This document shows positions 19,452 through 33,352 of a stretch of DNA of 33,833 bases, in pieces. The stretch spans positions 1-33,833 of the forward strand of contig NZ_JADGFC010000013.1 in assembly GCF_016744025.1 (NCBI RefSeq), in the 5' to 3' direction. The DNA comes from Sulfurimonas sp. (GTDB taxonomy: Bacteria; Campylobacterota; Campylobacteria; Campylobacterales; Sulfurimonadaceae). The position numbers and the translations under genes are program-made. The notes beneath the pieces are model-generated. The model had not been told where the DNA came from. It did not search any database and was given only the letters and a program-made list of their open reading frames with translations. Position 1 is the first letter of the stretch. Every line of letters begins with the position of its first letter.

Positions 19452-20848
19452 TGAAAATAAGAAATTTAATACCAAAGAAATTTAGAGCTATGGGCTCACT
19501 TGTAAAAAACTCAAAAAGTGAGAAAAGACAAATTACTAAATTAACCAGTAAACACAAAGATATACTTAAATCTCTTTTTGATCTTCCTGTAAGTTCAAAT
19601 TGGTTAAGTGATATTGAGATAGATAAGATAGAGAGAGATAGTACCGTTACAGCAGCTAAAGGAAGCAGAAAAGCTCATGTACTTAAAAAAGAGATTTTTA
19701 TTACATGTAAAGATGATGTTATAAGAGAAAAACTTGAGAGCATTTTTAACTATGATACTTTAGATTCAATTCTAGATACTCCATATCAGGGCATAGGAGT
19801 TTTTGAGTTGAATTGGGAAGAGCATGAGTACTATCTTTATCCTACACTTGTAGAGAGAAATTACAAAGAGTTTATTTTAGAAAATAGTGTTTTAAAGTTT
19901 GCTGCTGATGGTATGCCTGAAAACATTATGGACCACAAAGCTTTGCATGCAGTTTATAAAGCAAAACCTTTAAAACCTTATGGGCAACCTCTTTATAATC
20001 CACTGTTTTGGCTTATAGAGTTTAAAAATGCTTCATTAGAGTTTTGGGTTGAATTGCTTGAAAGATTTGGAACGCCTTGGGTTATATCTAAAACAGAGGG
20101 AGACAAAGAACTCTTAGCAGATGAGATATACAACATGCTTGGAGGAGATGGTGCAGTCTTGGATTCAGATGATTCAATTGAAATAGTAACAGCAAAAGAT
20201 AAGGGTGATTTTAAAGAGATTATAGAATACATAGATAACCAAATAAGAGAGGTAATTTTAGGAGGAAATCTAACAGGGCAAGTAAAAGGTGGTTCACAAG
20301 CAGCTGCTACTGTACACAATACAATTAGAATAGATCTTGCACGAGCAGATGAAAATATTGTAAATAAAATTATTAAAAATGTAATAGACTCATTTAAAGA
20401 GCTCAATCAAATAAGTGATGAAATCACAGGGCGACTCAAAGATAAAGAAGATGTAAATAAAAACTTAGCAGATCGTGACAAAATAATTTCAGATATGGGT
20501 TATATACCAACACAAGAATACATTGAAAAAACCTATAATATTCAAGTAGAAAAAAAACAGAGTGAACCAAAGGTATTTCCAAACTCAATGAAAGCTTTTT
20601 CTTTAGACTATCAAGATGAGTTACATATACAAAGCTCAAAAATAGATACAATTGACCCACTAACATTTCAAAAGCAAATTATACAAGCTACCAATACCTC
20701 TAATTCTTATGAAGAAGCCTTTGATAACTTAGCAGCACTCTATCCTAAAATAGATACTGCTGATTTGGAAGATAACCTTTTTAAATACATTGCAAACTCT
20801 TCAATTCTTGGAGTCTCTGAGGTAGATGAAGAGAATCCAAATGGTTAA
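19448..20848 (+). CDS. Portal protein (DUF935, Mu gp29-like)
   Basis: 466 residues. It contains RDSTVTAAKGSRKAHVLKKE, then GIGVFELNWEE, FWVELLERFGTPWVI and the glycine-rich VILGGNLTGQVKGGSQAAA, all characteristic of the DUF935 portal family. It forms the dodecameric ring through which DNA enters and leaves. The start overlaps the terminase stop by four bases and the 3' end overlaps the MuF gene. Confidence 0.93.
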   Translation: MMKIRNLIPKKFRAMGSLVKNSKSEKRQITKLTSKHKDILKSLFDLPVSSNWLSDIEIDKIERDSTVTAAKGSRKAHVLKKEIFITCKDDVIREKLESIFNYDTLDSILDTPYQGIGVFELNWEEHEYYLYPTLVERNYKEFILENSVLKFAADGMPENIMDHKALHAVYKAKPLKPYGQPLYNPLFWLIEFKNASLEFWVELLERFGTPWVISKTEGDKELLADEIYNMLGGDGAVLDSDDSIEIVTAKDKGDFKEIIEYIDNQIREVILGGNLTGQVKGGSQAAATVHNTIRIDLARADENIVNKIIKNVIDSFKELNQISDEITGRLKDKEDVNKNLADRDKIISDMGYIPTQEYIEKTYNIQVEKKQSEPKVFPNSMKAFSLDYQDELHIQSSKIDTIDPLTFQKQIIQATNTSNSYEEAFDNLAALYPKIDTADLEDNLFKYIANSSILGVSEVDEENPNG

Positions 20849-22001
20849 GTTTGACTTTAATCTTGCTCCTAAAGAGGCTATAAAGTATCTTCAGAACAAA
20901 GGTTATAAGTTGAGCTTTGATTACAACGAGATACAAAAGGCAGCACATCACAAAAGCTTTACAGTTGCAAAGATAACTAGACTTGATTTATTGCATGATG
21001 TGTTCACTTCTTTAGATGATTCACTAAAAACTGGTAAACATTTTGATGATTTTAAAAAGGAGATAGTGCCAACTCTTCAAAAGAAAGGTTGGTGGGGTAA
21101 ACAAGATATCATAAACCCTCGTACGGGAGAAGTAAAAACTATAGATATTGGTTCAAGAAGATTAAAAAATATCTATGATACCAATATGAGAGTATCTTAT
21201 GCTCAGGCTCGTCATAAACAGATGAGAGCACTTCCTTTATCAGTTTACTGGAGATACCAATCAGCATTATTAGAAAGCACAAGAGATAAACATGCTGCTA
21301 TGCATGGAACTATAAAACATAGAGATGACTCTTGGTGGAATACCAACTATCCACCAAATGGTTGGGGTTGCAAATGTAAAGTTACCGCTCGTTCACTCAA
21401 AGAGATTGAAAAAAAAGGATGGAAGATTGAAAAAGGGAGTTCATCAAACATAGCCTCAAAAGATTGGGACTACAATGTAGGAGATACAAGTAAAGTATCA
21501 CAACTCTCAAAGATAGACTTGGATAAAAGCTTAAGTACATTAAGCACTCTAAAAAGTATCAAAAAAGATAGCTATAAAAACCTTAGTGAGAAAGAGCTAG
21601 AGAGTAAATTTTATAAAACAATGGGAATAAAAGAGGGAGAGATATTCATTGATAAAGTAAATGACCCTATGATTATAGATAAATCTTTGTTTCTAAGTGC
21701 AAGTGGACACAGTAAAATAAAAAAACAAAATAGACATTTATACTTAGATGAAATAGCAAAAACTATTAAAGAACCACATGAAATATATTTGGAATTTGAT
21801 GTAGGTAAAATTACTGGAGAAAAGAGAGTTTTAAAAAAAATGTTTAGATATCTAAATGATGATGGTAAACAAAGAGCCTTACTCGTTATCTTTGAATATC
21901 TGAAAGATAAAACTCAAGGAGTAAGTGCTTACTATGTTAAAGAAGCTACACAAGTAAATAAAAGAAGATTTGAAAAACTAATATATAAAAAAGAGGACTA
22001 G
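20841..22001 (+). CDS. MuF head morphogenesis protein with C-terminal PBECR-like nuclease domain
   Basis: 386 residues. Residues about 30-215 are the Mu F/SPP1 gp7 domain, ending in the conserved YPPNGWGCKCKVTARS. After a Ser/Lys-rich linker, residues about 255-385 resemble the phage Barnase-EndoU-ColicinE5/D-RelE-like (PBECR) nuclease domains: DPMIIDKSLFLSASGHSKI, RHLYLDEIAKTIKEPHEIYL, then KRVLKKMFRYL. Such MuF-linked toxin domains could be delivered with the DNA. The next gene is a structural protein, not an obvious immunity gene. ATG at 20841 is preferred (AAGAGA upstream); ATG at 20826 with GAGG is also possible. Confidence 0.85.
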   Translation: MVKFDFNLAPKEAIKYLQNKGYKLSFDYNEIQKAAHHKSFTVAKITRLDLLHDVFTSLDDSLKTGKHFDDFKKEIVPTLQKKGWWGKQDIINPRTGEVKTIDIGSRRLKNIYDTNMRVSYAQARHKQMRALPLSVYWRYQSALLESTRDKHAAMHGTIKHRDDSWWNTNYPPNGWGCKCKVTARSLKEIEKKGWKIEKGSSSNIASKDWDYNVGDTSKVSQLSKIDLDKSLSTLSTLKSIKKDSYKNLSEKELESKFYKTMGIKEGEIFIDKVNDPMIIDKSLFLSASGHSKIKKQNRHLYLDEIAKTIKEPHEIYLEFDVGKITGEKRVLKKMFRYLNDDGKQRALLVIFEYLKDKTQGVSAYYVKEATQVNKRRFEKLIYKKED

Positions 22002-22101
22002 ACACCAATTTCTCCTTACCTTTGCACGATGTGGTGTATCATTGCTCATTCCGTAAGGCATATCCTCTTCTTTATAAAATTATACAACAAAGGCTAATAA
22101 T
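22002..22101. other. 100-bp intercistronic gap with folded element
   Basis: Between MuF and gpG, CCTTAC (about 22015-22020) and GTAAGG (about 22053-22058) can pair around an inner GCA..ATG/CAT.TGC stem. The opposite strand has a 27-codon frame starting at 22061 with AGAAGAGG upstream and running into MuF (to 21978). The gap is unusual in an operon whose other genes mostly overlap. No function is established. Confidence 0.35.
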
Positions 22102-22560
22102 ATGCAAATAAGCATAGGCGTTCAAGGCTTAGATAAAGTTCAAAAAAAGATACAAAACATAAGTAATAAAGCCAAAGATACTACACCTCTTATGGCAGAA
22201 CTAGCTAATCATCTTTACAATACAGTTCAAGATAGCTTTGATGAACAAAAAAGCCCAGATGGCATTAGCTGGAATCCTATTAAAAGTTCTACGCACAAAA
22301 GAAAAAATGGCTCTCAAAAAATACTCTATAAATCAGGTCACATGCAAGACTCGCTCAATACTACTCATAACAAACATAGTGCAACCATAGGCTTAAATGC
22401 TACAAAAGGTGGTTATCCTTACCCAGTAATACATCAATTTGGAACAAAAGATGGAAAGATTGCTGCTCGTCCTTTTATGCCTATAAAAGAAGATGAGAGT
22501 TTATATGACAATGTTAAAGAAGAATTAGAGAAAATTATTGAGGAATATATGAAGCTTTAA
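22102..22560 (+). CDS. G: Virion morphogenesis protein (Mu gpG / P2 gpS-like)
   Basis: 152 residues, the usual family length. It shows QDSFDEQKSPDGISWNPIK, then ILYKSGHMQDSLN and the highly conserved C-terminal YPYPVIHQFGTKDGKIAARP-type motif (here GGYPYPVIHQFGT, IAARPFMPI). The protein joins tail completion and head assembly. It is the last gene of the rightward operon, and its stop overlaps the Mor-like gene on the other strand by four bases. Confidence 0.9.
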   Translation: MQISIGVQGLDKVQKKIQNISNKAKDTTPLMAELANHLYNTVQDSFDEQKSPDGISWNPIKSSTHKRKNGSQKILYKSGHMQDSLNTTHNKHSATIGLNATKGGYPYPVIHQFGTKDGKIAARPFMPIKEDESLYDNVKEELEKIIEEYMKL

Positions 22561-31256: not shown

Positions 31257-32021
31257 ATGGAAAATATAAAAGAGATATTGAATAGATTATGCCTATTTTA
31301 TGGGGTTTCGAATAATAGAAAATTATCTGAAAAAATAAATATTAACTATAATACAGTGAGTACTTGGATAAAAAGAGATAGTATTCCTTATGAAAAACTA
31401 CATAAAATAGTACAAAAAGAAAGTATTTCTTATGATTGGCTCCTAACAGGGAAAGGAGAAATGTTTTTAAAAGAGGAAAATGACAGTACTATTGTTTTAG
31501 GAAATGATAATGTAACAGTGAGCGGTAAAGGTAGCAGTATTAATCATTCATTTAATGCTAAGAAAAAAAAGAAAAAAGAAAATTTTACAGAGATAGTAAG
31601 TATTCCATATTTAGAAAATACATATGCATCAGCTGGTCATGGTGCAATCAACTATGATGAAGCACCTCACCCTATGAGTTTTGATAAAAACTTTTTACAA
31701 AGACATTTTGGATTGGTATCTTTTAAAAATCTTCATATTATTAATGCTATAGGTAATTCAATGGAACCTACTTTTAAAGAAGGTGAGTTACTGATGATAA
31801 ACCCTTTTGAAAATGAAAACATGTATATAAAAGATGGTGGTATATATGTCATTTCTTGTAATAACAGTGTATTGGTAAAAAGAATAAATCATAATCCTAT
31901 TAGTGGTAAAGTTACACTAATAAGTGATAATAAAGAATATGATGATATACCAATAGAAAAAAATGAGTTTGAATTATGCAAAATAATAGGTCGTGTTGTA
32001 GGACACTTTGATAAAATTTAA
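31257..32021 (+). CDS. Main CI-like S24 repressor
   Basis: 254 residues. N-terminal CI-type helix-turn-helix with the family ending SIPYEKLHKI...SYDWLLTGKGEMF (about 42-70). A flexible linker contains GNDNVTVSGKGSSIN and a KKKKKK run. The S24 domain (about 112-252) has cleavage pair Ala126-Gly127 in YASAGHG, Ser168 in GNSMEPT and Lys208 in VLVKRI, so RecA-stimulated self-cleavage is expected. It should hold the early promoter off and keep lysogeny. RBS AGAGG before ATG. Confidence 0.92.
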   Translation: MENIKEILNRLCLFYGVSNNRKLSEKININYNTVSTWIKRDSIPYEKLHKIVQKESISYDWLLTGKGEMFLKEENDSTIVLGNDNVTVSGKGSSINHSFNAKKKKKKENFTEIVSIPYLENTYASAGHGAINYDEAPHPMSFDKNFLQRHFGLVSFKNLHIINAIGNSMEPTFKEGELLMINPFENENMYIKDGGIYVISCNNSVLVKRINHNPISGKVTLISDNKEYDDIPIEKNEFELCKIIGRVVGHFDKI

Positions 32022-32032
32022 AAAGGTAGAAG

Positions 32033-32593
32033 ATGGCTGATGTTAAAGGAAATGATAATTACACGATTGATGGAAATAATAGTCATATAGGGGATAAAAT
32101 TCACAATATAGATACAATAAATATAATCAATGTTAAAAATGAAAATAAAGACGTAGTAAAACAAAGGAGAATAGAACCTTTTTTTAAAATAGGTCTCATA
32201 AAGACACCATTTTTTAATCAATTCTTTTTTTATTCTTTTGTAGTTATTTCTTTATCCTTGTTAACTATATTTAATATGTTTAGATTTTCATTTGCGATGA
32301 TATTTCCAATTTATTTAGCATTGCTAATAGGAGCATATTGGTTACATGGTAAATTATATATTAGATTTTTTGATATGGTGTATATAAAAGAAGATGAAGT
32401 TACGAAAGGGGATATTTCTTATTTATATGAAAAAATAAATCCCGATAGTATAGAAGTAGATAATAGTGGAAAGATTCATTTTGGTTTTGTTGATAGTACA
32501 GAGAATAAATCATTTGATATGAAAAGTAATGCAGCTAGCTTATTGAAGTATAAAATTAAAGAATATCATAAGTATAAAAAGAAGGAAGAATAA
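32033..32593 (+). CDS. Membrane protein with GNDN/GNNS N-terminal motif
   Basis: 186 residues and not recognised. The N terminus reads VKGNDNYTIDGNNSHIGDKI, an Asn/Gly-rich repeat related to the linker of the neighbouring repressor. Two membrane helices follow (about 62-85 and 88-106), then a charged cytoplasmic-type domain. It is eleven bases after the repressor gene, with AAGGTAG upstream, so it is expressed in the lysogen. Superinfection exclusion or defence is a reasonable guess, not shown. Confidence 0.75.
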   Translation: MADVKGNDNYTIDGNNSHIGDKIHNIDTINIINVKNENKDVVKQRRIEPFFKIGLIKTPFFNQFFFYSFVVISLSLLTIFNMFRFSFAMIFPIYLALLIGAYWLHGKLYIRFFDMVYIKEDEVTKGDISYLYEKINPDSIEVDNSGKIHFGFVDSTENKSFDMKSNAASLLKYKIKEYHKYKKKEE

Positions 32594-33352
32594 ATGATAA
32601 AGAAAAACATTCAAGTTTCTGGTTTTACACAAGCACAGAGATTAAAAGACTTAGAAAAAATCAAAACAAAATATTTAAAAAAAGATTATAAATTTATTGA
32701 ATATATAGATGATGGTATCACTAAGTCAATAGCTATATTTGAAGTTGATGAAAAAATTATAAAAAAAGAGAAAAATAAAAAAATAACTATAGCAGTTGTA
32801 TCACTATTAATAATAGTTTTTTTTATTTTTTCTACAACTAAAGAAACTAATTTCTTAGAAAAAACAAATAAAGAGGCACAATCATTATCACTTCAAAGAT
32901 TGGAAAATATATCAAAAGATTACGTTCAAAGTAAACAAATTTCAGAATCATATGGTAAAAGCTTCTATAATTGCTTAGGACAACTCATTTGGGAAAAAGA
33001 TGAAAAGTTAACAATTAATAAAATGCTAGATTGGTGTTATATAGACTATGAAAAAGCAGACAATCATCAAATGAAGCAATACTATAATACAGCAAAATTA
33101 ATGAAAGATATTAGCCCTTGGGATGGTAGCTATAAACCTTTTGAGGACTATATTAAAACTATTATGACTAACTCAAATTCATATGAACATGAAAATACAA
33201 AAATCAATTTTGTTTATTATGGAGCTGATAGACCTCACATGCAAGTTAGAACGACATTTAAGGGTACAAATGCTTTGGGTTGTGTTGTTAGTAATAGTAT
33301 GTCAGTAAAAGTAGATGCGATAACAAATAAACTTTACGATATTTCAAATTAA
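32594..33352 (+). CDS. Single-pass membrane protein
   Basis: 252 residues. A basic N-terminal domain (QAQRLKDLEKIKTKYLKKDY) is followed by one helix at about 84-101 (ITIAVVSLLIIVFFIF), then a 150-residue exported domain with Cys in FYNCLGQLIW, DWCYIDY and ALGCVVS. The C-terminal VKVDAITNKLYDIS resembles small beta domains. It follows the previous gene with no gap (AAGGAAG upstream) and ends the lysogenic operon. Function unknown. Confidence 0.75.
   Translation: MIKKNIQVSGFTQAQRLKDLEKIKTKYLKKDYKFIEYIDDGITKSIAIFEVDEKIIKKEKNKKITIAVVSLLIIVFFIFSTTKETNFLEKTNKEAQSLSLQRLENISKDYVQSKQISESYGKSFYNCLGQLIWEKDEKLTINKMLDWCYIDYEKADNHQMKQYYNTAKLMKDISPWDGSYKPFEDYIKTIMTNSNSYEHENTKINFVYYGADRPHMQVRTTFKGTNALGCVVSNSMSVKVDAITNKLYDISN

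Follow-up and report, generated by a model that had tools for sequence, protein, structure and literature searches.

A predicted pseudoknotted small RNA accompanies active-type PBECR2 domains on the MuF head proteins of Mu-like phages

The stretch of Sulfurimonas sp. DNA analysed here (the window, 33,833 nucleotides in all) carries a Mu-like transposable prophage that encodes MuA- and MuB-like transposition proteins, a Mor-like activator and a CI-like repressor, together with a structural set of terminase, portal, major capsid, tail and baseplate genes. Gene F (20826..22001, plus strand) encodes a minor head protein of 391 amino acids that matches phrog_220 (minor head protein) over nearly its full length (E 1e-74). 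It combines an MuF domain (residues 61-186; 21006..21383, plus strand; PF04233 Phage_Mu_F, 66.6 bits, E 4e-18) with a C-terminal PBECR2 domain (residues 266-388; 21621..21989, plus strand), and PF18810 recognises the latter with 61.5 bits when the whole of F is searched and 64.5 bits (E 1.3e-17) when the domain is searched alone, the curated Pfam cut-offs being 29.6 bits for PF04233 and 27.1 bits for PF18810. A first-pass annotation of this DNA had proposed a PBECR-type nuclease-like domain fused C-terminally to MuF and starting at 21603; the profile search bears out the fusion and places the start close to that position.

MuF-PBECR fusions have already been described. The available text of Iyer et al. 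(2017; PMC5512222) describes their phage-head cargo as a BECR-fold domain predicted to be an RNase that works without metal, names host, phage or CRISPR RNA as possible targets and treats Mu F as an inactive relative; window F has the domain architecture given there (PF18810 PBECR2, PF18819 MuF_C). An AlphaFold2 model of the PBECR2 domain, built from 23 aligned sequences, is confident (pLDDT 83.7, pTM 0.80) and predicts a helix (model residues 51-66) followed by a long sheet (strands 70-77, 84-96, 99-109, 115-122 and 135-139), as expected for a BECR core. The structural check that the first-pass annotation had suggested came out in two ways, with a confident helix-plus-sheet model on the one hand and no solved nuclease matched by fold on the other. 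Searches of the PDB by sequence and by fold gave no significant match and no solved BECR nuclease, the best fold match in BFVD was a phage polyvalent LPD3 protein (E 1.7e-3), and the fold search as a whole returned phage polyvalent proteins only and no nuclease. This lowers confidence only in the nuclease fold, a match of that kind not being a defining feature of PF18810.

The domain keeps the residues by which the active-type form is recognised. K297, K300 and R303 (21714..21734, plus strand) make up a basic cluster at the N-terminal BECR helix and ahead of it, and S367 (21924..21926, plus strand), at a position occupied by serine or threonine, is predicted to provide an active-site alcohol. 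In the model R303 lies in the helix and S367 in the fourth long strand (115-122), and arginine and histidine replace each other at position 303 among relatives. Matching by position, we assign R303 and S367 as the probable equivalents in the window of the active-site residues set out in the available text of Iyer et al. (PMC5512222). H295, which belongs to an SGH motif, was considered as a catalytic histidine and rejected, as it varies among close relatives and sits in a low-confidence loop.

Of 399 genomes of the order, 39 encode a PBECR2 domain that scores above the cut-off, whereas none of 14 control genomes does, and among named Mu-like phages the domain is present on the F proteins of RcapMu, RR1-B and JBD25. 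Values of dN/dS (NG86 omega) are about 0.03-0.2 for most pairs in the C-terminal domain and the MuF part alike, which indicates that the domain is maintained by purifying selection. Similar MuF parts nevertheless carry PBECR2, a MuF_C-like domain, an unclassified domain or none at all, and the relatives with another or no C-terminal domain imply that MuF can there fulfil its role in the head without it. In six loci (L006, L009, L029, L444, L453 and L460) the C-terminal domain is of an unclassified kind (...YSLIP.ML...), adjoins a long F-G gap and may represent an undescribed BECR-like family. Locus L013 (1501-2943) encodes an F-like protein whose long C-terminus resembles ADP-ribosyltransferases by eye (TFRGF, EDE) and gives only a weak DUF6070 match in Pfam. 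F proteins with a different C-terminus at L007/L027, L441, L443 and L462 are followed by gaps of 216-247 nt, and that of L027 contains a small ORF that may encode an immunity protein and offers a useful contrast to the PBECR2 type. In Gastranaerophilales (L045, 4772-5584), a D12-class adenine methyltransferase gene, identified by family match, is inserted between G and a short F that has no C-terminal domain; L041 and L048 resemble L045 in sequence. The genome from which the window comes also encodes a second, contig-truncated MuF protein (contig C160, 3-497) with 65% identity over the first 166 amino acids, which belongs to another Mu-like prophage and has its C-terminal domain missing from the assembly, and a weak, contig-truncated PBECR2-like domain with an SGH motif (contig C73, 32-259) that scores 20.9 bits, below the cut-off.

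The gene that follows F in the window is G, which encodes a tail completion and virion morphogenesis protein of 152 amino acids (22102..22560, plus strand; PF05069 Phage_tail_S, E 6e-20; phrog_26, E 3e-26). The first-pass annotation had identified this gene as gpG and had noted that an adjoining immunity gene is missing, and on both points the present analysis agrees with it. G is also the first ORF after F in most PBECR2 relatives, as a rule behind a gap of 90-117 nt, and in Mu, RcapMu, RR1-B and JBD25. F and G are separated by 100 nt in the window and usually by 84-130 nt in the PBECR2 relatives. A coding role for the window gap was rejected, since its plus strand holds no ORF of at least 40 amino acids before G. 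This arrangement departs from that of the MuF polymorphic toxins (Jamet et al., 2017; PMC5576092), with which window F shares a MuF N-terminus, a variable C-terminal domain and a temperate phage as host. As in that class, the MuF domain is encoded within the DNA-packaging module of a temperate phage and different C-terminal domains are found on a conserved MuF part. However, 89.4% of the MuF polymorphic toxins are followed by a small ORF taken as the immunity gene (PMC5576092), whereas the ORF that follows window F is the structural G and the gap holds a predicted RNA.

A protein immunity gene could instead lie elsewhere in the prophage, as the annotation had suggested for the two genes at 32033-33352, which would make F a classical MuF polymorphic toxin. 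These genes adjoin the CI-like repressor gene (31257-32021) and could be expressed in the lysogen. Against this, homologues of the 32594-33352 product occur in three genomes of the same genus (G035, G083 and G089) that have no F homologue, and neither product has an immunity or defence match: that of 32033-32593 is DUF5392-like with hydrophobic stretches, and that of 32594-33352 belongs to PHROG 3403, of unassigned function, with a second copy on contig C145 of the same genome. We therefore rejected immunity at this site, and consider distant protein immunity scarcely credible. The best candidate for the missing immunity is an RNA in the F-G gap, which the annotation did not foresee; its alternative proposal, that PBECR2 might be an effector that acts on entry, may equally apply.

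The RNA gene is predicted on the minus strand at 21984..22073, where it overlaps the last codons of F. It is preceded by a promoter with 10 of 12 consensus matches (TTTGCA-18 nt-TATAAT; 22079..22108, minus strand; -10 box at 22084-22079), and a scanning tool likewise detected a minus-strand promoter in the window and in RR1-B. The ends are placed, by inference, about 7 nt past the -10 box (5') and at the U-run specified by the AAAAAA of F at 21987-21992 (3'). Four helices can be drawn on the minus strand: a closing helix P0 (21991-21997 with 22063-22069), a pseudoknot helix (ACACCA at 22002-22007 with TGGTGT at 22032-22037), helix P1 (CCTTAC at 22014-22019 with GTAAGG at 22053-22058) and a core hairpin P2 (22027-22031 with 22040-22044) whose minus-strand reading contains a single A.C mismatch. 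The gap RNAs of the window and of eight relatives gave no match above threshold in Rfam.

Comparison with related loci supports this structure. Own partners were compared with swapped partners in 13 Campylobacterota-type variants, and P0, the pseudoknot helix and P1 each show compensatory change that was equalled in 0 of 2001 permutations, the helices having been split by eye with a bias towards the own partner. An automatic permutation test on 25 Campylobacterota sequences found 16 distinct versions of the pseudoknot helix (0 of 5000 permutations). The alphaproteobacterial phages of the RR1-B type have a like layout on the minus strand, with a promoter and an intrinsic terminator; here the hairpin 1 loop and that of the terminator pair with each other and show double changes (CG:7/UA:7 and GC:12/AU:2), 98.7% of cells being paired (0 of 500 shuffles). 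RcapMu has the F-G gap and a minus-strand promoter, and RR1-B has both of these and the intrinsic terminator. A single closing helix common to all clades was rejected, as it is present at low GC only and absent from the high-GC set. Sigma-70-like minus-strand promoters at the G end of the gap are over-represented in both sets, with a score of at least 9/12 in 55% of high-GC and 58% of low-GC gaps compared with 2-6% on the plus strand, 3-23% in shuffled sequences and 8% in short-gap controls. The gaps also fold more stably than controls from coding sequence, and of the two strands the minus is slightly the more stable. Several Campylobacterota G.U pairs suit the plus strand better than the minus, so that the assignment to the minus strand is firm for the alphaproteobacterial type and less so for the window. 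Judged by sequence comparison, the F-G gap would hold a pseudoknotted RNA partner of the kind that accompanies type III toxins.

The presence of this RNA follows the state of the PBECR2 active site. We compared gaps of at least 60 nt with shorter ones for 139 distinct F-PBECR2 proteins that have a G gene, collected by similarity to PBECR2 or MuF and not as a random sample, the gap lengths depending on G starts projected from a profile. R or H at 303 and S or T at 367 are both kept in all 124 proteins with the longer gap and in 2 of the 15 with the shorter one (Fisher 1.6e-16, with kinship ignored). Serine or threonine at 367 is found in 124/124 and 5/15 proteins, respectively. The two short-gap proteins that keep both residues lack K297, so that each of the 15 lacks at least one of K297, K300, R303 and S367, where R303 and S/T367 had been chosen beforehand and K297 and K300 were picked once the contrast was seen. 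F262, D276, P317, E319, R381 and Y387, which look structural, are kept in both groups, whereas K297, K300, R303 and S/T367 are kept mainly together with the gap. On a tree of the MuF part, all 6 of the independent pairs on supported branches agree (9 pairs over all branches; p of about 0.03), so few being the independent losses of active site and gap. In JBD25 both are lost.

F proteins without a C-terminal domain either lack the gap, as at the Campylobacterota-like loci L438 and L439, or are followed by an inserted Dam-like methyltransferase gene. In one pair of Sulfurospirillum loci, a divergent tract between highly identical flanks covers the end of PBECR2 and the adjoining gap, which holds a different RNA type, as if the two had been exchanged together. 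Gaps of similar size also adjoin other, unclassified C-terminal domains and the gap RNA is therefore not specific to PBECR2, but the idea that it is unrelated to PBECR2 was dropped once the cases with a short gap or no domain had been tabulated. As the RNA is lost with the active site and is absent without the domain, the simplest reading is that it exists because of the RNase. It might be argued that PBECR2 has no catalytic activity and serves as a structural or RNA-binding module, the role proposed for Mu F, whose related MuF_C is predicted to be inactive in the available text of Iyer et al. (PMC5512222), and viable phages such as JBD25 do have PBECR2 without active-site residues. The window, however, keeps all four contrast residues in a domain under purifying selection, and a dead module seems to us improbable.

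Comparison between loci shows the joint presence and loss of RNA and active site, as it does the domain, its purifying selection, the RNA structure and the promoter, and these observations lead to the following model. F is a structural head protein of a Mu-like phage and would have an active-type PBECR2 endoribonuclease in an interchangeable C-terminal effector slot; from what has been proposed for the family, this domain would travel in the head and enter the recipient by injection along with the DNA. Its partner would be a pseudoknotted small RNA of about 90 nt, presumably transcribed from its own minus-strand promoter in the F-G gap, that most likely binds the RNase domain and keeps it inactive in the lysogen or producer. 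A type III-like RNA antidote would in this way take the place of an immunity gene for a protein, and any recipient that lacks the RNA would be exposed to an active RNase. The role of antidote is the best supported because a producer or lysogen would otherwise be unprotected and because pseudoknotted RNAs neutralise the endoribonucleases of type III systems (PMC5086642). We put the chances at about even that MuF-PBECR2 is a head-borne RNase effector of the active type and has a cognate small RNA, which most likely serves as an antidote of this type.

It is conceivable that the RNA acts on expression instead, as a cis-antisense RNA or as part of the mRNA where F meets G. Such an element would limit F, or set the F:G ratio, in phages whose F carries an active RNase, in a type I-like manner and without binding the protein. 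The RNA overlaps the last codons of F and lies upstream of the G start, the G.U pairs of the Campylobacterota type favour a plus-strand mRNA element, and its loss where F lacks an active RNase also fits. Yet the RNA falls for the most part beyond the coding region of F, the feature conserved between clades is structure rather than antisense complementarity, and the RNA has its own promoter and terminator; such a regulator is on balance unlikely. The association with an intact active site would also fit if the RNase used the RNA as a cofactor or guide or cleaved it as a substrate; the RNA might, for instance, be packaged together with F. Type III RNAs are indeed processed by their own toxin (PMC5086642). 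That the RNA has a promoter of its own on the other strand points to expression independent of the late operon, at a time when an antidote would be required, and we regard a cofactor or substrate as distinctly unlikely.

The antidote proposed here would work like that of the type III systems ToxIN, CptIN and TenpIN (PMC5086642), with which the F-RNA pair shares a predicted endoribonuclease and an adjoining pseudoknotted non-coding RNA, but the pair is not type III in layout or toxin fold. In type III systems a repeat RNA lies upstream, on the same strand and in the same operon, with a terminator between RNA and toxin, whereas the window RNA is single-copy, downstream and on the opposite strand with its own promoter; the type III toxin is a ToxN-like protein of another fold, whereas the predicted toxin of the window is a BECR-fold domain on a virion protein. 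We found no report of an RNA partner in the openly accessible literature on MuF or PBECR domains, and the available text of Iyer et al. (PMC5512222) on MuF-PBECR fusions does not mention one, whereas RNA loci of the window type track the state of the active site. We tentatively propose, at somewhat less than even chances, a new class of toxin and antidote in which a capsid-borne MuF-PBECR2 RNase has as its immunity a pseudoknotted RNA antisense to the 3' end of its own gene, a pair that would be widespread among the Mu-like phages of both Campylobacterota and Proteobacteria and would disappear when catalysis is lost.

A predicted small RNA locus that has no match in Rfam is now described, and RcapMu and RR1-B are named laboratory phages that carry this type of gap. 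The active form of PBECR2 becomes recognisable from sequence, through K297, K300, R303 and S/T367 together with the RNA. The RNA of MuF-PBECR2 phages offers a possible answer to how phages with a predicted RNase in their heads avoid harming themselves without an adjoining immunity gene.
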